Shown here: positions 39,551 through 48,501 of the stretch, in pieces | How the letters are laid out: every line of letters begins with the position of its first letter | Position numbering within the stretch: position 1 is the first letter of the stretch | Assembly: GCF_017812015.1 (NCBI RefSeq) | Contig: NZ_JADQTN010000001.1 | Location: forward strand, 1,776,501 to 1,840,500 | DNA from: Pontixanthobacter sp. CEM42 | GTDB lineage: Bacteria; Pseudomonadota; Alphaproteobacteria; Sphingomonadales; Sphingomonadaceae | Reading direction: 5' to 3' | Length of the DNA stretch: 64,000 nucleotides | Made by a program: the position numbers and the translations under genes | The notes under the pieces: model-generated | Told to the model about the DNA's origin: nothing | Seen by the model: only the letters and a program-made list of their open reading frames with translations | Database searches by the model: none

Positions 39551-40567
39551 TTACTCCGCGACATCGTGAAGGTTAAAACCCCTAACGACCTTGGTCGTCC
39601 CGCCTACAAGCTCCACCAATGCGACCGGGATATTCCGGTGCATGGCACAATAGAGCCCGTCTGCTTGGGGCTGCCCGGTTAAGACGCGGCCCTGGCGGAC
39701 CGCTGCTGCCTGTTCGGACGTGAGATCAAGAGCCGGGATGTCGTCCAGCCCTGCCTCCAAAGGCAGTATTACGTCTTCAAGTGGCGCGCCCTTACCGATT
39801 TCATTCAATTTGTCTAGCGAAATCGCCTGATTTTCGAGGAAGGGCCCCGCCTTTGTCCGCCTAAGAGAGGTAACATGCCCAACCGTTCCAAGCGCCCGCG
39901 CAATATCGCGTGCAAGAGAGCGGATATAGGTGCCCTTGCTAACATAGGCTGTGAGGGTGATCGCATCAGCCAATTCGAGCGGTTCATGGCCGATTTCCGG
40001 ATCAGGCCGCGTCGCTGTGGTCGCGAAGGTCGAATAGGGCATATCATCACCCGAAAAGCCCGAGCCGGATGTCAGCGAATAGATCGTCACACGCCGCGTC
40101 TTGAGCTCAACCTCTTCGCCAGCACGCGCCAGATCATAGGCCCGCTTGCCATCGACCTTGAGCGCCGAATATTTGGGCGGCACCTGATCGATCTCGCCAG
40201 TGAAATGTTCGAGTATCGCGGTAATGGCCGCCATTGGTGGGCGTTGATTGCTGGTTTGAACAACCTCCCCTTCGCTATCCAGAGTGCTGGTTTCTTCACC
40301 AAACTGGATGGTGAACTCGTATATCTTGCTGGCATCGAGCATCCGCCCTGCCAGCTTAGTCGCTTCGCCCAGCGCAATCGGCAGAACACCTTCCGCCAGA
40401 GGATCGAGCGTCCCACCATGTCCGACCTTGGTCTTGGCAAAGCCAGCCTCGCGCAAATTGCGCTTTACCGCCGCAACAGCCTGCGTCGAGCCAAGCCCAT
40501 GAGGCTTATCCAGCAATATCCAGCCGTTGGGAGCCGAAAATTTAGGGGGTAGTTTCGTGTCTGTCAT
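39551..40567 (-). CDS. truB: tRNA pseudouridine(55) synthase TruB
   Basis: 338 residues. Catalytic Asp in VGHGGTLDPLAEGVLPI near residue 57; other motifs are GWILLDKPHGLGST at the start and PPKYSALKVDGKRAYDLAR. Makes pseudouridine 55 in tRNA T loops. The protein carries an additional C-terminal segment like other alphaproteobacterial TruBs. The usual upstream neighbour rbfA is 9.6 kb away; the stretch between holds a galactoside gene cluster. Confidence 0.95.
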   Translation of the reverse strand: MTDTKLPPKFSAPNGWILLDKPHGLGSTQAVAAVKRNLREAGFAKTKVGHGGTLDPLAEGVLPIALGEATKLAGRMLDASKIYEFTIQFGEETSTLDSEGEVVQTSNQRPPMAAITAILEHFTGEIDQVPPKYSALKVDGKRAYDLARAGEEVELKTRRVTIYSLTSGSGFSGDDMPYSTFATTATRPDPEIGHEPLELADAITLTAYVSKGTYIRSLARDIARALGTVGHVTSLRRTKAGPFLENQAISLDKLNEIGKGAPLEDVILPLEAGLDDIPALDLTSEQAAAVRQGRVLTGQPQADGLYCAMHRNIPVALVELVGGTTKVVRGFNLHDVAE

Positions 40568-40598: not shown

Positions 40599-42041
40599 TC
40601 AAGCAGCATCACCTCTGCCAATTGCAAGTTCGGCAGTTTGGCCGAAGATCAGCTTGTTCATCACCAGCGATGTCAGAACCGACAATACCAGCGTGAAGAA
40701 CATGCCGTGGATGTAATGCAGCGGCTGCCAGATCATGCTGAAATACGCATAGAATGCGACGCCGGTCACAACCCCGATCATCGCCGCGCCCGCCTTCACA
40801 TTGCGGAAGGCAAGGCACACGATAAACGCCGACAGGATCGGCATAGACAGCAATCCGTAAAGCTCCTGCACTGTATTGATCAGGCTTTCCTGACTGGCGA
40901 AGAACGGCACCAGCACCAGCGCCAAGATCGACATGGCAATCGACACAATCGCGCTGAGTTTTACCACAGGCGGATCTTTGTCGACATAAGCCTCGTGAAT
41001 GTCGCAGACATACAGCGCAGCAGAGGCATTCAGGATCGAATTGAAGGTCGTGAGAACCGCTGCAGCAATACCCGCCGCAAATGCGCCCGAAAGCCAAACG
41101 GGCAGAACATCACCGACAATCCGTCCGTAGGCCGGGTCGCCGATGTCGCCGTACAGCTTGTAAGAAACAATACCCGGGATCACGACAATCGCCGGTACGA
41201 TCAGCAAGCGGATACCCGCTGCCGTCAACACACCTTTTTGCGCTTCCTTGATATTGGGAGCAGCCATCGCGCGCTGGGTAATCGTCTGGTTGGTCGACCA
41301 GTAAAATGTCTGGATGAAGATCATGCCCGTAAGCAAAGTATGCCACGGAATAGGCGAGTCATTGTCACCTACTAACGTCAGCCGTTCCGCCGGAATGCCC
41401 GACAGATCGAAGTCGATCGCTTGCAGCGCCAGATAAACTACCAGCAGCGCAAGGCCGAGGATCAAGACACCCGAATAGGTGTCCGACACCGCAACCGCTC
41501 TTAGCCCACCGAAAATCGCATAACACGCGCCGACGGTCGCCAAGATGATCGAGGTAATCATCAAGTTCTGCAGCCCTGTATCCATACCGGTCATCGAGAG
41601 CAGGAACAGCGAACCGCCATAGAGAATAGCGGGCAGGAAAATGAACAGATTGCCGAACAGGAACAACACCGAAATCAACGCCCGGATATGCTTGTCACCA
41701 TACTTCTTCTGGAGCAGTTCGGTCGTCGTGGTACAGTTGTTCTTGTAGTAAACCGGTAGGAACACGAAACACAGGATCAGCAAACCAGCAACGGCAGCAA
41801 ACTCCCACCACGCAAGCAGCGCCATCTGGTTGCCATTCATCCCGATCAGCTGATCGGTCGAGAGGTTCGTCAGCGTGATCGAACCGGCCACAAAATACCA
41901 AGCCAAACCGCCATTCGCGAGAAAGTAGTCCTTCTCGTCAGCCGCTTCGCCTTTGCCTTTACCTCGGCAATGCAGATACGTCGCCAGCGCGATCAGAGCA
42001 GAGATTGCGACGAAAACCGCAATTTGGACCGGACTATTCAT
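40599..42041 (-). CDS. Sodium/solute symporter (SSS family), probably sugar
   Basis: 480 residues with about 13 membrane helices. SSS landmarks include DEKDYFLANGGLAWYFVAGS, LSTDQLIGMNGNQMAL, QTFYWSTNQTITQRAMAA and TTFNSILNASAALYVCDI, closest to the SGLT-type sugar branch. It is divergent from the alpha-galactosidase gene, which suggests it imports galactose or the galactoside that operon degrades. The substrate is inferred only from position. Confidence 0.87.
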   Translation of the reverse strand: MNSPVQIAVFVAISALIALATYLHCRGKGKGEAADEKDYFLANGGLAWYFVAGSITLTNLSTDQLIGMNGNQMALLAWWEFAAVAGLLILCFVFLPVYYKNNCTTTTELLQKKYGDKHIRALISVLFLFGNLFIFLPAILYGGSLFLLSMTGMDTGLQNLMITSIILATVGACYAIFGGLRAVAVSDTYSGVLILGLALLVVYLALQAIDFDLSGIPAERLTLVGDNDSPIPWHTLLTGMIFIQTFYWSTNQTITQRAMAAPNIKEAQKGVLTAAGIRLLIVPAIVVIPGIVSYKLYGDIGDPAYGRIVGDVLPVWLSGAFAAGIAAAVLTTFNSILNASAALYVCDIHEAYVDKDPPVVKLSAIVSIAMSILALVLVPFFASQESLINTVQELYGLLSMPILSAFIVCLAFRNVKAGAAMIGVVTGVAFYAYFSMIWQPLHYIHGMFFTLVLSVLTSLVMNKLIFGQTAELAIGRGDAA

Positions 42042-42110
42042 GAATTCTCATCCCTCTCGATAGCCTGCTCTGTGACAGGTCTAGCCGCCACGCCTAGCCC
42101 GCTTTCCCGG

Positions 42111-42130
42111 TCAATACCAACCAATACCAT
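42111..42130. promoter_or_regulatory. Tandem CAATACCA repeat in the symporter/alpha-galactosidase divergent region
   Basis: Two copies of CAATACCA (42112-42119 and 42122-42129) lie exactly 10 bp apart, one helical turn. The opposite strand reads TGGTATTG twice. This is a plausible binding site for a regulator of the two divergent units. No regulator gene is visible nearby. Confidence 0.35.
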
Positions 42131-42152
42131 TGTTTCTATTTGCGCGGCTCAC

Positions 42153-44291
42153 ATGATCTGCCAGAGATGCTGTGTGGCTGACTTTACTATCCTCCGCGGC
42201 AAGGACACGCTGGTTGTGCTCTGCACTGCCAAGGGCGGGCGGCCACGGATCGTCTATGCAGGGCCGGATATCCCCGGAGCCACACCGGAGGAACTGGCAA
42301 TACTCCAGAGCGGCCAGCATATCCCCGGTGGCCCTGAGCAGCCTATCCCGCCGTCACTGCTCAATCCGCTGGGCACAGGATGGCCGGGCGCTGCAGGCCT
42401 GATCGCGCATCGCGATGGCAAGGATTGGGCGATTGATCTGCGTGTCGAAAACGTGCGCCAGTCCGACGAGAGTGACGCGGAAATTGTCTGCGTCGATGCT
42501 TTGAGCGTACTGCAGTCCACGCACAATTTCGCGCTCTGTCCCCGCACTGGCGTTTTCACCGCATCGACCAAGATCGTCGGCAGCAGCGACAAGCCGGTCA
42601 ACATTGATTGGTGTGCCGCTCTCTGCCTGCCGATGGATGACAGATTGAACCGGCTCCGCAGCGTCAGCGGCAAATGGGCGAGCGAATTTCAGATCGAAAA
42701 CATTGAGCGCTTTCGCGGATCTTATCTGCGCGAAAACAAAGCAGGCCGCACAAGCCATTCCGACTTTCCCGGATTGTTTGCCGGAACCGGTACAACCGAT
42801 GAAGCAACCGGACTGGCGTTCGGTTGTCACCTTGGCTGGTCAGGCAACAGCCGCATGCGCATTGATACAGAGCAAGATGGCACAACCATTCTGCAGGCTG
42901 GCGAACTGCTCCTGCCCGGGGAGGTTTCTGACAGATACACCACACCACAGCTGGTCGCCTGCTGGTCCAATGATGGATACGGCGACGTCTCGCGGCGGCT
43001 TCACGCGTTTGTGAAGAATTCGATAGTCAGCGAACGCTCAAAACCGCGCCCCGTCCACTACAACACATGGGAAGCGGTCTATTTCGATCACGATGAAGCT
43101 CGCCTGATTGATTTGGCCGAACAAGCCGCAGAAGTAGGCGCAGAGCGCTTCGTGCTGGACGATGGCTGGTTCGGAGGACGGCGCAGCGACAAGGCTGGTC
43201 TCGGCGATTGGTGGGTCTCGCCCGATATCTACCCCAATGGCCTGCAATCAATCGTCAATCGCGTCCGCGAGCTGGGAATGGAATTCGGGCTGTGGTTCGA
43301 GCCTGAAATGGTCAATCCTGATAGCGATCTTTACCGCGCGCATCCTGACTGGGTGCTGGGAGTCGAGGGCGTCGAGGCGATCCCGTCGCGGCATCAGCTA
43401 ACGCTCGATCTGACTAAGCCCGAGGTCACCGACTATCTGTTCGAGAAGATCAGCGCACTGATTACCGAATACCAGATCGACTACATCAAATGGGACATGA
43501 ACCGCGATACGCAGCATCCCGTCAGCGACGGGCGCGCCGTGATGCACAAGCAGACTGAAGCGCTATATGCTCTGCTCGACCGCTACCGCACGGCACACCC
43601 CACCTTGGAAATCGAAAGCTGCTCTTCAGGCGGTGCTCGTGCCGATTACGAAATTCTCAGACGGACCGACCGCATCTGGACGTCGGACAATAATGACGCA
43701 CGCCACCGCCACCAAATCATGCGCGGCGCCAGCCATTTCTTCCCGCTGAGCGTGCTTGGCAATCATGTTGGTCCCAAGCGTTGCCATATCACCGGCCGGA
43801 TGTTCTCGATGGAGTTTCGCGCGGCTAGTGCGATCTTTGGCCATATGGGAATGGAGCTGGATCTGGCAGACGAGACCGCCAAGGATCGCGCCACCCTTGC
43901 GGCAGCAATTAGGCTTCACAAACAACACCGCGAACTGATCCATGGTGGCGAATTCTACCGGCTCGCAACTCCCGACTATCTGGCCGCCATGGGCTGCGTT
44001 GCGCGCGAGAAAGATGAAGCATTGTTTAGCTGTGCGTTGCTCGATATCCATCCGGCTACGAAACCGGATCGCCTCCGCTTCGATGGGCTCAACCCCGCGA
44101 AGCAATATCGTATCAAGCTGCTCTGGCCGCAAAGTAACCCGTCGCGCTCTGATCCATCCATCATTGACGCCGCCGCGCTTATGGAGAATGGAAGCCTCTT
44201 CGCAGGTGCAGCATTGATGGAACACGGCATCCAGTTGGCATTGGTCCATCCCGACACTTGCCTGATTTATCATTTGAAGGCCGAGAATTGA
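42153..44291 (+). CDS. GH36 family alpha-galactosidase
   Basis: 712 residues from ATG 42153 (GTG 42174 is an alternative; neither has a strong ribosome site). The GH36 core is clear: VHYNTWEAVYFDHDE, RFVLDDGWFGGRR, GLWFEPEMVNPDSDLYR, the nucleophile Asp in YIKWDMNRD, and the acid/base region SCSSGGARADYE-IWTSDNNDARHR. No signal peptide, so cytoplasmic; substrate must be imported. Stop overlaps the glpD TTG start. It hydrolyses terminal alpha-galactosides; raffinose-type or galactosyl-glycerol substrates are both possible. Confidence 0.9.
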   Translation: MICQRCCVADFTILRGKDTLVVLCTAKGGRPRIVYAGPDIPGATPEELAILQSGQHIPGGPEQPIPPSLLNPLGTGWPGAAGLIAHRDGKDWAIDLRVENVRQSDESDAEIVCVDALSVLQSTHNFALCPRTGVFTASTKIVGSSDKPVNIDWCAALCLPMDDRLNRLRSVSGKWASEFQIENIERFRGSYLRENKAGRTSHSDFPGLFAGTGTTDEATGLAFGCHLGWSGNSRMRIDTEQDGTTILQAGELLLPGEVSDRYTTPQLVACWSNDGYGDVSRRLHAFVKNSIVSERSKPRPVHYNTWEAVYFDHDEARLIDLAEQAAEVGAERFVLDDGWFGGRRSDKAGLGDWWVSPDIYPNGLQSIVNRVRELGMEFGLWFEPEMVNPDSDLYRAHPDWVLGVEGVEAIPSRHQLTLDLTKPEVTDYLFEKISALITEYQIDYIKWDMNRDTQHPVSDGRAVMHKQTEALYALLDRYRTAHPTLEIESCSSGGARADYEILRRTDRIWTSDNNDARHRHQIMRGASHFFPLSVLGNHVGPKRCHITGRMFSMEFRAASAIFGHMGMELDLADETAKDRATLAAAIRLHKQHRELIHGGEFYRLATPDYLAAMGCVAREKDEALFSCALLDIHPATKPDRLRFDGLNPAKQYRIKLLWPQSNPSRSDPSIIDAAALMENGSLFAGAALMEHGIQLALVHPDTCLIYHLKAEN

Positions 44292-45802
44292 CCGACGACA
44301 CACCATACGACCTTCTAGTCATCGGCGGCGGGATTAACGGCGTTGGGATCGCCCGCGATGCCGCAGGACGCGGCGCAAAAGTGCTGCTGTGTGAAAAAGA
44401 TGACTTGGCCAGCCATACATCCTCTGCCAGCACCAAGCTGGTCCATGGCGGTTTGCGCTATCTGGAGCACTACGAGTTCCGCCTAGTGCGGGAAAGCCTG
44501 ATCGAGCGCGAACGCTTGCTCGGCATGGCGCCGCATATCATCTGGCCACTGCGCTTCGTGTTGCCGCATGACAAAGGCCTGCGCCCGTCATGGCTGCTGC
44601 GGCTGGGCCTGTTTCTCTACGACCATATTGGCGGGCGAAAACTGCTCCCTGAGACCAAAACTGTTGATCTGCGGGCCGCACCACATGGTGATGTGCTCGA
44701 AGAGCGGCTCGTCAAAGGGTTCGAATACTCGGATTGCTGGGTCGAAGATGCCCGGCTTGTTGTTCTGAACGCGATGGACGCGGCGCAGCGCGGCGCCGAC
44801 ATCCGCACCCGCACCGCATGTGTCGGCTTGGACCGGCGCGGGCAGGTCTGGCTTGCTGATCTCAAAGACAAGCATGGTGAGACGCAGCGTATCTCTGCAC
44901 GGGCAGTTGTGAATGCAGCCGGCCCATGGGTTGACGGAGTGCTTGGCAAAGCGATGCCGGAAAAGCAGCATCAGAACCTTCGTCTTGTCAAAGGCAGTCA
45001 CCTGATCTTCCCAAAACTGTTCGATCACGATCAAGCGTACATCTTCCAGAACAAAGACGACCGGATCGTATTCGCAATTCCCTATGAACGGGAATTCACG
45101 TTGGTTGGAACCACTGATGTCGCGTTCAAAGGCGATGCCAACACCATCGAAATATCGGATGATGAATCCGCCTATATCTGCGATGCTATCAATGAATATT
45201 TGAAAGTTGATGTAGCGCCCGACCAGGCTATCTGGAGTTACTCCGGTGTACGCCCGCTCTACGATGATCAATCGCGCAATAACTCGACCGTGACCCGCGA
45301 TTATGTGTTCGAGCTCGACAATCCAGAAGGCGCACCGCCGATTCTCTCGATCTTCGGCGGCAAGATCACGACTTACCGCAAGCTCGCAGAACATGCGCTT
45401 CACAAGCTGCCAATGCCTTGGCTTGAAACACAGGACGCATGGACGGCGGGTGCAGATTTACCCGGCGGCGACATGGAGGTCGGTCAATTCGATGCCTTCG
45501 TTTCAGACATGCAGTCCCGATACGAATGGTGCTCTGCCGATGTTATGCTCCGCCTGTGCCGTGCTTATGGAACGTTGGTTTTTGCAGTTGTTGGCGATGC
45601 GAAATCATGGGCCGACATGGGACAAGACTTCGGCGCTGGCCTGACCGAGCGCGAGGTCGGATATCTGATCGATGGCGAATTCGTGCAAACCGCCGAAGAC
45701 GTACTCTGGCGGCGAAGCAAACTCGGCCTGCATATGAATGATGCGGAGCGCAAATCACTCGAAGATTGGTTCGCCAAGCGCGGTGCGGCCGCGGCGGCAT
45801 GA
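44288..45802 (+). CDS. glpD: Glycerol-3-phosphate dehydrogenase (GlpD)
   Basis: 504 residues from TTG 44288, which overlaps the alpha-galactosidase stop (TTGA) and has GAAGG seven bases upstream. FAD-binding LLVIGGGINGVGIARDAAG, then STKLVHGGLRYLEHYEF, KGSHLIFPKLF and the SGVRPLYDD segment are characteristic. Membrane-associated enzyme oxidising glycerol-3-phosphate to dihydroxyacetone phosphate. Its place between galactosidase and galT is unusual. No glycerol kinase gene is in the window. Stop overlaps galT by ATGA. Confidence 0.93.
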   Translation: MTDDTPYDLLVIGGGINGVGIARDAAGRGAKVLLCEKDDLASHTSSASTKLVHGGLRYLEHYEFRLVRESLIERERLLGMAPHIIWPLRFVLPHDKGLRPSWLLRLGLFLYDHIGGRKLLPETKTVDLRAAPHGDVLEERLVKGFEYSDCWVEDARLVVLNAMDAAQRGADIRTRTACVGLDRRGQVWLADLKDKHGETQRISARAVVNAAGPWVDGVLGKAMPEKQHQNLRLVKGSHLIFPKLFDHDQAYIFQNKDDRIVFAIPYEREFTLVGTTDVAFKGDANTIEISDDESAYICDAINEYLKVDVAPDQAIWSYSGVRPLYDDQSRNNSTVTRDYVFELDNPEGAPPILSIFGGKITTYRKLAEHALHKLPMPWLETQDAWTAGADLPGGDMEVGQFDAFVSDMQSRYEWCSADVMLRLCRAYGTLVFAVVGDAKSWADMGQDFGAGLTEREVGYLIDGEFVQTAEDVLWRRSKLGLHMNDAERKSLEDWFAKRGAAAAA

Positions 45803-46878
45803 GTGACATTGTCACGCCTCTGGATACACCTGTCGTTGGTGACGTGTTCCTCCGCAACTTCAGAAAAGCTGACGGACGGATGCTTTATCTCTACGGGCGC
45901 GAAGCCCATGGCTTGCCTGTGCAAAAGCAGCAAAACGACGACATCGCGACAGGCGGTGAGGTACGTTTCCATCCGCTGCGTGGCGAGTGGAACATCTACG
46001 CAGCGCACCGGCAAAACCGGACATTCAAACCCGCGGCCAGCGCTGATCCGCTCGCGCCGACGATTGCAGGCGGACCGACAACCGAAATTCCATTCGAAGA
46101 CTTTGAATTGGCGATCTTCGAGAACAAGTTTTCCGCACTCCATCCGCTTGCTCCAGCGCCGCCTCAACTCGATGGAATCGACAGCGAAGGCGCCACAGGG
46201 CGATGCGAGGTTATTGTCTACACCCCTGAGGCTGAAGGCAGCCTCCACACTATTGGTCAAGACCGCAGGCGGCTTCTGATCGCTGCATGGATTGATCGCT
46301 ATCAGGCGCTGTTTGCCGAAGGCTGCGGCTATGTTTTGCCGTTCGAAAATCGCGGTGATGAGGTTGGCGCGACGCTGCACCATCCGCACGGACAGATTTA
46401 CGGCTTCGGCAAAGTGCCACTCGTCCAGCAGGCTGCTATCGATGCTTTCGCTGGCGGCTATGACTTGGCGGCGGAGATCGCTGCTGCGATGCCCGACTAT
46501 GGTTTGTCCGAGGCGAACGGCATGGCTGCCTTATGCCCGCGATTTGCGCGATTCCCCTATGAGGTCTGGATTGCCCCTATCCAGTGCCGCGAAGGCCCAT
46601 GGGATTGCAGCGAAGAGGAACTGGACGGCTTCGCTACACTGCTCGGCGAAGTGACACGGCGCTATGATGCCTTCTTCGGCCGCCCAACCCCCTATATGTT
46701 TGCGTTGCACTCGGCACCGCGTGAAGGTTGCGACAACTACCACTTCACTGCACAGTTCTATCCGCTTCTGCGCGGACCTGACCGGGTCAAATATCTTGCG
46801 TCCGTCGAACAGCATACGGGCGTCTTTACCGTCGACGTGATGCCGGAAACCGCCGTTGAGGCGCTGAGAGCAATCTAG
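45799..46878 (+). CDS. galT: Galactose-1-phosphate uridylyltransferase
   Basis: 359 residues from ATG 45799 inside the glpD stop (ATGA). Leloir pathway enzyme exchanging UMP between UDP-glucose and galactose-1-phosphate. The catalytic HPHGQIYG near residue 194, EVRFHPLRGEWNIYAAHRQ, NRGDEVGATLHHPHG and FHFTAQFYP-like NYHFTAQFYP are family hallmarks. One base separates it from galK. Confidence 0.94.
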   Translation: MSDIVTPLDTPVVGDVFLRNFRKADGRMLYLYGREAHGLPVQKQQNDDIATGGEVRFHPLRGEWNIYAAHRQNRTFKPAASADPLAPTIAGGPTTEIPFEDFELAIFENKFSALHPLAPAPPQLDGIDSEGATGRCEVIVYTPEAEGSLHTIGQDRRRLLIAAWIDRYQALFAEGCGYVLPFENRGDEVGATLHHPHGQIYGFGKVPLVQQAAIDAFAGGYDLAAEIAAAMPDYGLSEANGMAALCPRFARFPYEVWIAPIQCREGPWDCSEEELDGFATLLGEVTRRYDAFFGRPTPYMFALHSAPREGCDNYHFTAQFYPLLRGPDRVKYLASVEQHTGVFTVDVMPETAVEALRAI

Positions 46879-46879
46879 C

Positions 46880-47917
46880 ATGGCAGTGACCGTCACATCA
46901 CCCGGCCGCGTCAATCTGATCGGCGAGCACACCGACTATAATGGCGGCTGGGTCCTGCCCGCAGCCCTGTCGGTGAGCCTCACGGCCACGCTCATGCCGC
47001 GCGAGGATCGACGCATCAGCGTATCGGCGCGAGGATATTCGGGCACAGCCGAGCGCACGATCGATGATGCGGCTGGCGGGGACTGGTCCGATCCGGCTGT
47101 CGGTTCGATTATCGAGGCGATCAATTTGGGATTGTTGAAGGGCGGCGCCGATATTTCCGTGCAATCCTCCATTCCTGCCGGATCGGGGCTATCATCTTCC
47201 GCCGCACTGGTTGTCACACTGCTCAAAGCGGCGCGAGAGGCGGCGGGATCGAGCCTTTCCGACACCGAAATTGCAGTCGCCGCGCGCCGTGTCGAGAACG
47301 ACTATATCGGCGTTCCCTGCGGCATCATGGACCAAATGGCGGTAGCCATCTCCAAACCCGGCGAGGCAATGGCGCTGGATACGAGTTCGCTGGAATACCG
47401 CGTCGTGGCTTTGCCGAAAACGCATGACATGGTGGTGATCCATTCGGGTAAGACGCGCAAACTGACCGATGGCCGCTATGCTGAACGCAAGGAGGAATGC
47501 GACGCAGCGAAGGCCGCATTCGGCACCAATCATCTTTGCTTGCTCGACCCCGAGGCAGTGGAAGCAGCCGATATCGATGAGACTGTCCGTCGCCGCGCGC
47601 GCCATTGCGCGACCGAGCATCGGCGCGTGCACGCTTCAATCGAAGCTCTGGAGAGTGGCGACACCTGCCAGTTCGGCGCGCTGATGGTCGCCAGCCATGC
47701 TTCCATGCGTGACGATTTCGAGATGTCGCTACCCGCTATCGACGCGCTAGTTGAAGATGCTGTTGAACAGGGAGCGACAGGAGCGCGCCTGACCGGCGGC
47801 GGATTTGGGGGATGTATTGTCGCCTGCGTTGACCGCGCGAAGCGAAGCGAATGGCAAGAAGCGCTTCTTGCAAAGCATCCCAAAGCCCGGTTCGTGGACG
47901 CAATCACGCCCGAGTAG
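46880..47917 (+). CDS. galK: Galactokinase
   Basis: 345 residues. GHMP kinase motifs: substrate loop GRVNLIGEHTDYNGGWVLPA at residue 9 onward, ATP loop PAGSGLSSSAALVV, and TGGGFGGCIVACV at the C-terminus. Phosphorylates galactose to galactose-1-phosphate for GalT. Last gene of the galactosidase-glpD-galT-galK operon. Convergent with tdk, separated by six bases. No galE in the window. Confidence 0.95.
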   Translation: MAVTVTSPGRVNLIGEHTDYNGGWVLPAALSVSLTATLMPREDRRISVSARGYSGTAERTIDDAAGGDWSDPAVGSIIEAINLGLLKGGADISVQSSIPAGSGLSSSAALVVTLLKAAREAAGSSLSDTEIAVAARRVENDYIGVPCGIMDQMAVAISKPGEAMALDTSSLEYRVVALPKTHDMVVIHSGKTRKLTDGRYAERKEECDAAKAAFGTNHLCLLDPEAVEAADIDETVRRRARHCATEHRRVHASIEALESGDTCQFGALMVASHASMRDDFEMSLPAIDALVEDAVEQGATGARLTGGGFGGCIVACVDRAKRSEWQEALLAKHPKARFVDAITPE

Positions 47918-47922
47918 GACGA

Positions 47923-48501
47923 TCAGCCGCCCAGCGCCTCGCTGAAATGTTTCCGGCACAATGCAACATAGCGATCATTGCCGCCGATTTCCGTTTGCGC
48001 GCCGGCTTTCACCGCAGCGCCGCTCTCATCGACGCGCAAATTCATGCTGGCCTTCTTGCCGCAATGACACACGGCTTTGAGCTCTACGAGCGAATCTGCC
48101 AGGCCCAAAAGAGCTGCCGAACCGGGAAATAGCTCGCCCTGAAAATCGGTCCGCAACCCGTAACACAGCACTGGTATGCCCGCTTCGTCGGCCAAGCGTG
48201 CGCATTGCCAAACCTGATCTTTTGACAAAAACTGTGCCTCATCGATCAGCACGCAATCTATCGGCTCGACCGAATGCGCAGCGCTTATCTGGGCCCACAA
48301 ATCGGTACCATCCTGATAGCGATGCGCCTCTGCGCCCAAGCCAATCCGGCTCTCGATCGCCTTGTCATCTGACCGATCATCCAACTGTGCCGTCCACAAC
48401 ATCGTGTGCATGCCGCGTTCGCGATAGTTGAAATCTGCCTGCAAAAGCGTGGTCGATTTGCCTGCGTTCATTGACGCGTAATAGAAATACAGCTTAGCCA
48501 T
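47923..48501 (-). CDS. tdk: Thymidine kinase
   Basis: 192 residues. Type II (zinc) thymidine kinase: P-loop YASMNAGKSTTLLQ, IDEAQFLSKDQVWQ catalytic region, GLRTDFQGELFPGSAALLGLAD lasso start, and Cys zinc ligands (ELKAVCHCGKKASMN). Makes dTMP from thymidine in nucleotide salvage. Monocistronic, divergent from abgT. Confidence 0.95.
   Translation of the reverse strand: MAKLYFYYASMNAGKSTTLLQADFNYRERGMHTMLWTAQLDDRSDDKAIESRIGLGAEAHRYQDGTDLWAQISAAHSVEPIDCVLIDEAQFLSKDQVWQCARLADEAGIPVLCYGLRTDFQGELFPGSAALLGLADSLVELKAVCHCGKKASMNLRVDESGAAVKAGAQTEIGGNDRYVALCRKHFSEALGG

Follow-up and report, generated by a model that had tools for sequence, protein, structure and literature searches.

A glycerol-3-phosphate dehydrogenase gene within an alpha-galactosidase operon of Pontixanthobacter sp. 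CEM42: possible catabolism of glycerol galactosides

A 64,000-nucleotide stretch of the Pontixanthobacter sp. CEM42 genome (contig NZ_JADQTN010000001.1, positions 1,776,501 to 1,840,500; here called the window) carries an operon in which glpD, the gene for aerobic glycerol-3-phosphate dehydrogenase, lies between a family GH36 alpha-galactosidase gene and the galactose genes galT and galK. Why should a gene of glycerol catabolism be placed among genes for the use of galactosides? The initial annotation proposed that the operon serves a galactosyl-glycerol pathway, with the red-algal osmolyte floridoside as substrate. Comparison with related genomes shows that the clade to which this GH36 belongs is commonly linked to glycerol genes, and this linkage, together with a glycerol kinase gene elsewhere in the genome, backs a glycerol galactoside without favoring floridoside over others. 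From the genome context we suggest, with confidence a little short of even, that the operon degrades glycerol galactosides, the likeliest being digalactosylglycerol, the head group of digalactosyldiacylglycerol (DGDG).

In a family sample of 249 genomes, 74 had GH36 matches, as did 21 of the 385 genomes of a class sample; the loci that are named are the best 80 of 592 relatives in a contig scan. A GH36 tree was built with FastTree from 151 loci (L063-L162 and L176-L226) less four duplicates, making 148 rows with the window. The window protein falls in a clade of 50 (SH-like, that is Shimodaira-Hasegawa-like, support of 99), and every named row in it is alphaproteobacterial. In 34 of the 50 clade rows glpD, glpK or both lie in the fetched flank, as against a single one of the 98 rows outside (Fisher test), the flanks being mostly 7–10 kb, with some ending early at contig ends; taken alone, glpK is linked in 14 of the 50 and in 1 of the 98. 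A partial glpD at the contig end in L071 was under threshold and is scored as a miss. The comparison has limits, in that the tree rows are not independent of one another, contig ends shorten some flanks, and other phyla are represented outside the clade; we therefore made a same-family control, in which a glycerol gene is linked in 19 of 27 clade genomes but, for other GH36s, in 1 of 35 loci; these 35 are the loci fetched of 38, and the counts, read by hand, include the glpK of G087 at 10.2 kb and leave out G202 and G151, with glpK at 10–11 kb. As a separate observation, the sole linked row outside the clade is L225/L256 (G217), where glpK, glpD and a DeoR regulator are found 4–8 kb from the GH36 gene.

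The operon and its borders, in window coordinates, are as follows:

39551..40567, minus strand: truB, left border of the site, conserved next to glpD whether or not a relative has the operon
40599..42041, minus strand: SSF-type sodium:solute symporter (Pfam SSF and TIGR00813 above cut-off)
42042..42152, no strand: SSF-GH36 intergenic region, presumed to hold promoters and operator
42153..44291, plus strand: GH36 alpha-galactosidase, 712 amino acids (Pfam GH36 N, Melibiase and GH36 C domains)
44288..45802, plus strand: glpD, aerobic glycerol-3-phosphate dehydrogenase (NCBIfam PRK12266)
45799..46878, plus strand: galT, a divergent hexose-1-phosphate uridylyltransferase (Pfam N-domain; HPHGQ in the sequence)
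46880..47917, plus strand: galK, galactokinase (TIGR00131)
47923..48501, minus strand: tdk, right border of the site, conserved next to glpD whether or not a relative has the operon

The names truB and tdk are presumed from the sequences of these genes rather than from a family scan. The open reading frames and sequence give four plus-strand genes in the order GH36-glpD-galT-galK, with the symporter divergent on the minus strand and 111 bp between the SSF and GH36 starts, in agreement with the initial annotation. The overlaps that it reported are also present: the TTG start of glpD overlaps the GH36 stop as TTGA, and the glpD stop overlaps the ATG of galT as ATGA, with galK following after a gap of one base. 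Co-translation of all four enzymes, which had been claimed outright, is what such overlaps would predict.

The enzyme assignments are of varying strength. The GH36 protein exceeds the 27-bit cut-offs of all three of its domain models (N, 117 bits; Melibiase, 393; C, 46) and matches AgaSK (2yfn) with 332.7 bits over residues 107–652, its KWDMN and SDNNDA motifs aligning with KWDMN and SDNTDA of AgaSK; we take these motifs to be catalytic, with the nucleophile proposed to lie in KWDMN and the acid/base in SDNNDA. In domain family and motifs it thus resembles the known bacterial GH36 enzymes of the AgaSK and AgaA/AgaB type, and differs in belonging to an alphaproteobacterial clade of its own that is tied to glpD and glpK. 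No obvious signal peptide is seen by eye at its N-terminus, as had been reported. GlpD scores 764 bits against the cut-off of 360 of the NCBIfam equivalog PRK12266, and GalK 254 against 226.65 with TIGR00131. GalT passes in its Pfam N-domain (71.5 versus 22.1), but its C-domain, at 26.8, is under the cut-off of 29.2, and both NCBIfam GalT models score under theirs; the HPHGQ in its sequence is presumably the GalT motif. The symporter scores 108 bits against a cut-off of 22.8, and its closest solved chain is the sodium/glucose cotransporter 2xq2. If Q69, E88, S91, N142, K294 and Q428 are, as we assume, the galactose-contact residues of vSGLT, then four of the six are kept in the alignment to 2xq2, read by eye, the changes being S91 to A and N142 to F.

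The same order, SSF / GH36-glpD-galT-galK, is found in Erythrobacteraceae-like genomes, and other orders occur elsewhere. Hirschia maritima has GH36-glpD-glpK together with AraC and GH42; a metagenome-assembled genome (MAG) of Parvularcula has glpK-SSF-GH36-galT-galK-DeoR-glpD-GH42; Henriciella and the Hyphomonadaceae MAGs L075 and L073 have galK-galT, GH36, DeoR, SSF, glpD and glpK; Sphingorhabdus has glpK-SSF-GH36; G040 (L158) has glpK-SSF / GH36-glpD-GH42; and Caulobacter OR37 and RHG1 have GH36, GH42, a lipase-like gene, SSF and glpD-glpK. Genes called within 8 kb of GH36 in the window and the 49 other clade loci were clustered and counted (the GH36 of one locus was missed by the simple caller). 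Among these 50 loci SSF is present in 40, galK in 28, glpD in 27, galT in 26 and glpK in 13; GH42 and TonB receptors follow with 11 each, then galactonate aldolase (8), DeoR/GlpR-like regulators (7), galactonate-kinase-like genes (7), AraC (5) and lipase-like hydrolases (5). Local chromosomal genes recur beside these catabolic ones, and no sucrose or mannan enzymes appear among the recurrent families that could be named, most of the unnamed families not having been scanned. Seven clade loci (L070, L076, L083, L085, L157, L158 and L159) have galactonate-pathway genes and neither galT nor galK in the flank, and the galactose branch therefore looks exchangeable between the Leloir route and a galactonate route of De Ley-Doudoroff type; the galactonate aldolase of L158 is above its cut-off, and the other names in this pathway are our assumption from similarity to cluster members.

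Glycerol released by the operon would need a kinase, and the initial annotation, which correctly saw none beside the operon, considered this its weak point. The window genome (G000; 3.08 Mb, 2 contigs) encodes two FGGY kinases, one of which, at C1:151827-153296, is a glycerol kinase (TIGR01311, 598.5 bits with the cut-off at 590.35); the other, beside other sugar genes, we take from its sequence, without a family scan, to be xylulokinase-like. The objection is thus rejected, because glpK is present in the genome, on the same contig as the operon though far from it (C1:151827 and C1:1818653); it lies in the cluster itself in some relatives, and the G000 kinase is strongly matched in all 27 family genomes that carry the GH36 clade. 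A facilitator fared differently. Two adjacent MIP channel genes at C1:217132-218583 (L246:5132-6583) encode an aquaporin Z, above its cut-off, and a divergent channel that is under every equivalog cut-off, so that no glycerol facilitator model exceeds its cut-off among the MIP channels scanned in G000; MIP matches are absent altogether from 3 of the 27 clade genomes (G060, G192 and G194). For these reasons glycerol may mostly arise inside the cell. The parallel with the glp regulon (GlpK, GlpD, GlpR) is that GlpD is here, glpK is elsewhere in the genome, and GlpR-like DeoR regulators occur in some relatives' clusters; the difference is that no facilitator model is matched in G000, and that glycerol would come from a glycoside cut intracellularly.

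From the observed gene order, families, linkage and co-occurrence counts we infer the following route. Removal of the fatty acids of DGDG, a plastid lipid, by lipases would leave alpha-Gal-(1->6)-beta-Gal-glycerol; an outer-membrane TonB receptor, which is inside the cluster in some relatives, would help its import, and the SSF symporter would carry the small glycoside (or galactose) inward. The cytoplasmic GH36 would then remove the alpha-linked galactose, a GH42 enzyme encoded elsewhere in the genome would cleave the beta-linked one, GalK and GalT would pass galactose to the Leloir pathway, and glycerol would proceed through glycerol kinase and GlpD to dihydroxyacetone phosphate. Adjacent galT and galK serving released galactose are familiar from the Leloir gal operon, in contrast to the position of glpD between galactosidase and galT. 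Digalactosylglycerol fits better than floridoside because the enzymes for alpha-galactose, beta-galactose and glycerol match its chemistry.

A likely gene for the beta-galactosidase that this route calls for is consistently present. It is found in all 27 genomes of the GH36 clade (of the 249 sampled), 22 with GH42 (PF02449) and five with GH2 (G087, G151, G153, G202 and G243, with one GH2 C-domain match each, in frames of 1036–1134 amino acids), none having both; not one of the 22 has a GH2 C-domain match at E<=1e-50. GH42 or GH2 occurs in 14 of the 175 GH36-less genomes of the same sample. Of the genomes with other full GH36s, 29 of 38 have GH42 at E<=1e-50, compared with 3 of the 9 whose GH36 matches are weak and 10 of the 175 without GH36; in a hand-chosen control of 60 GH36-less genomes GH42 is matched in 12 at E<=0.001, two of which reach 1e-50. 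Where the truB-tdk site could be compared, GH42 is found in 13 of 13 genomes with the operon there versus 0 of 10 without it, at an unlinked position, and the two come and go together within genus g54 (G054 versus G130 and G187) and genus g73 (G194 versus G141); the significance of this co-occurrence is inflated by the kinship of the genomes. The only GH42 gene of G000 is at about C1:30461-32452 (L167:9461-11452; domain C1:30536-31696), unlinked to the operon. No GH35 match exceeded the cut-off in the 12 genomes searched.

A candidate gene for the first step is present in some relatives. Between GH42 and SSF in L081, L082, L176 and L177 lies a PAF-acetylhydrolase/PET-hydrolase-like alpha/beta hydrolase, and in L158, from the window's own family, a lipase-like gene is downstream of SSF, glpK and galactonate aldolase, giving 5 of the 50 clade rows; the end of L085 gives a match that is weak and partial, and, outside the clade, L197 has a lipase-like gene beside GH42. 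Three of them are placed as follows:

L081:6526-7866: lipase-like hydrolase
L082:6560-7897: lipase-like hydrolase (PF03403)
L158:2174-3478, minus strand: lipase-like hydrolase

The protein scanned, that of L082 (Caulobacter), matches PF03403 with 39.2 bits against 20 and has PDB matches from E 5e-8. Signal-like N-termini are seen by eye on the lipase-like proteins, and the gene could be a candidate for a secreted galactolipid acyl hydrolase that feeds the pathway.

A broader proposal, in which we have somewhat less confidence, is that of an undescribed alphaproteobacterial catabolic locus for the head group of a chloroplast galactolipid, a single module made up of a lipase, an importer, the two galactosidases (alpha and beta), the enzymes for galactose and the glycerol branch; it is with the same reserve that we suggest that GH42 and GH2 substitute for one another in it, as do the Leloir and galactonate routes. 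DGDG and monogalactosyldiacylglycerol (MGDG) rank with the most abundant lipids in the membranes of phototrophs, and if the proposal is true then this type of locus would be a marker for carbon flow from galactolipid head groups. It would also lend genomic support to Egel's 1979 idea of galactosidases serving galactosylglycerols, and make the old question of what galactosidases are for testable in cultivable bacteria. Egel (1979, 1988, as cited in PMC8333865) regarded galactosylglycerols from galactolipids as possible substrates of lac. The likeness is a galactosidase for glycerol galactosides of plant galactolipids; the difference is that here the galactosidase cluster, or its near surroundings, physically contains glycerol-catabolic genes and, in those few clade rows, the lipase-like gene. 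Plant apoplast galactosylglycerol was not consumed by Pseudomonas syringae in vitro, according to PMC11844564. Among the literature matches listed, judged by title and the start of the abstract and with subscription journals mostly outside the search, none describes a bacterial gene cluster for galactolipid glycerol-galactoside head groups or for floridoside.

The alternative that survives best, although we think it somewhat improbable, is a general galactoside operon, in which SSF, GH36, GalT and GalK use alpha-galactosides (melibiose or another oligosaccharide, for example), GH42 takes beta-galactosides, and glpD is a housekeeping resident. The site itself speaks for this. The operon lies between truB and tdk, a setting conserved in relatives; in ten relatives without any GH36 match (G006, G062, G064, G086, G092, G130, G141, G162, G187 and G211) glpD is there without SSF, GH36, galT or galK. 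G180 has glpD at truB-tdk (L241, G180:C1:1090001-1102000) and SSF, GH36, galT and galK together elsewhere (L149), and G015 has glpD at the site and a GH36 from another clade. Partial states without GH36 are seen in G048 (glpD-galT-galK) and G002 (SSF-glpD-galT-galK), corresponding to L040/L252 and L042/L253; a search for GH36 remnants in L252, L253 and the operon-less L254 gave a best E of 0.03, and nothing next to glpD scored usefully. A tree was also made of 30 glpD proteins, for three of which (L049, L060 and L062) no truB-tdk setting was apparent; on it, no fewer than nine changes are required between the operon, partial and bare states. Since glpD occupies the same site in the ten GH36-less relatives without galactose genes, it is probably resident in this lineage, with galactose genes gained or lost around it. 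The embedding of glpD, offered at first as evidence for the pathway, is therefore a weaker argument for this lineage, while glpK linkage and the other lineages, with glpD linked in several families, are unaffected. The same alternative accounts for the many GH36s outside the clade that pair with SSF, GH42 or galTK and no glycerol genes, and for the twelve best solved matches of the window GH36 all being named alpha-galactosidase, one of them a sucrose kinase fusion. It does not readily account for the excess of linked glpK within the clade, since glpK is not a truB-tdk gene, for the recurrence of glpD or glpK linkage in Hirschia, Parvularcula, Henriciella, Caulobacter, Kordiimonadaceae and Sphingorhabdus in orders differing from the window's, or for the DeoR/GlpR-like regulators in seven clusters.

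Several further points weigh against degradation of glycerol galactosides, and digalactosylglycerol in particular. For 16 of the 50 clade members the fetched flank, which is cut in some cases, shows no glycerol gene close by. The sole glpD match of the genome, being at truB-tdk also in the ten GH36-less relatives, surely serves ordinary glycerol-3-phosphate metabolism as well. The window operon itself lacks GH42, glpK and lipase; no lipase-like gene is among the open reading frames between truB and tdk, and the glpK and GH42 of G000 are both distant. When upstream regions of GH42 from six genomes, and of GH36/SSF and glpK from seven, were compared by eye without a motif program, no convincing operator common to operon, GH42 and glpK was seen, nor any motif joining the operon to the distant glpK and GH42 of G000. 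Members of the SSF family mostly transport monosaccharides or comparably small solutes, and digalactosylglycerol import by this symporter is a supposition. The GH2 genes are domain matches, and so putative as likely beta-galactosidases. Because GH42 is also frequent with GH36s outside the clade (the 29 of 38 genomes above), most of which have no linked glycerol genes, the pairing of alpha- with beta-galactosidase is not peculiar to glycerides, and GH42 alone is rejected as an indicator of glycerol use.

Direct cleavage of floridoside or isofloridoside (alpha-galactosyl glycerol) to galactose and glycerol has the complete gene set in G000 (GH36, GalK, GalT, glycerol kinase and GlpD), and the close relatives are, from record titles and what we take to be their habitats, largely of marine genera. 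We nevertheless consider it quite improbable, as it needs no beta-galactosidase and so leaves unexplained both the GH42 or GH2 gene of every clade genome and the coming and going of GH42 with the operon at truB-tdk, and as the relatives include Caulobacter and Sphingorhabdus, which to our knowledge are not typical red-algal associates. In its favor, isofloridoside can be formed from galactose plus glycerol by a GH36 alpha-galactosidase working in the reverse direction, as described in PMC8509150. Red algae hold di- to tetragalactosyl glycerols beside floridoside, by the account in PMC6320990, and algal solutes and galactolipids are therefore both possible sources.

Two minor observations concern regulation. 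The one DeoR/GlpR-like regulator that was scanned scores 313.6, just under the cut-off of 331 of the best DeoR/GlpR model. In the SSF-GH36 intergenic region we find AAGCGGGCTAGGC, which is also present in two relatives, G120 and G179.

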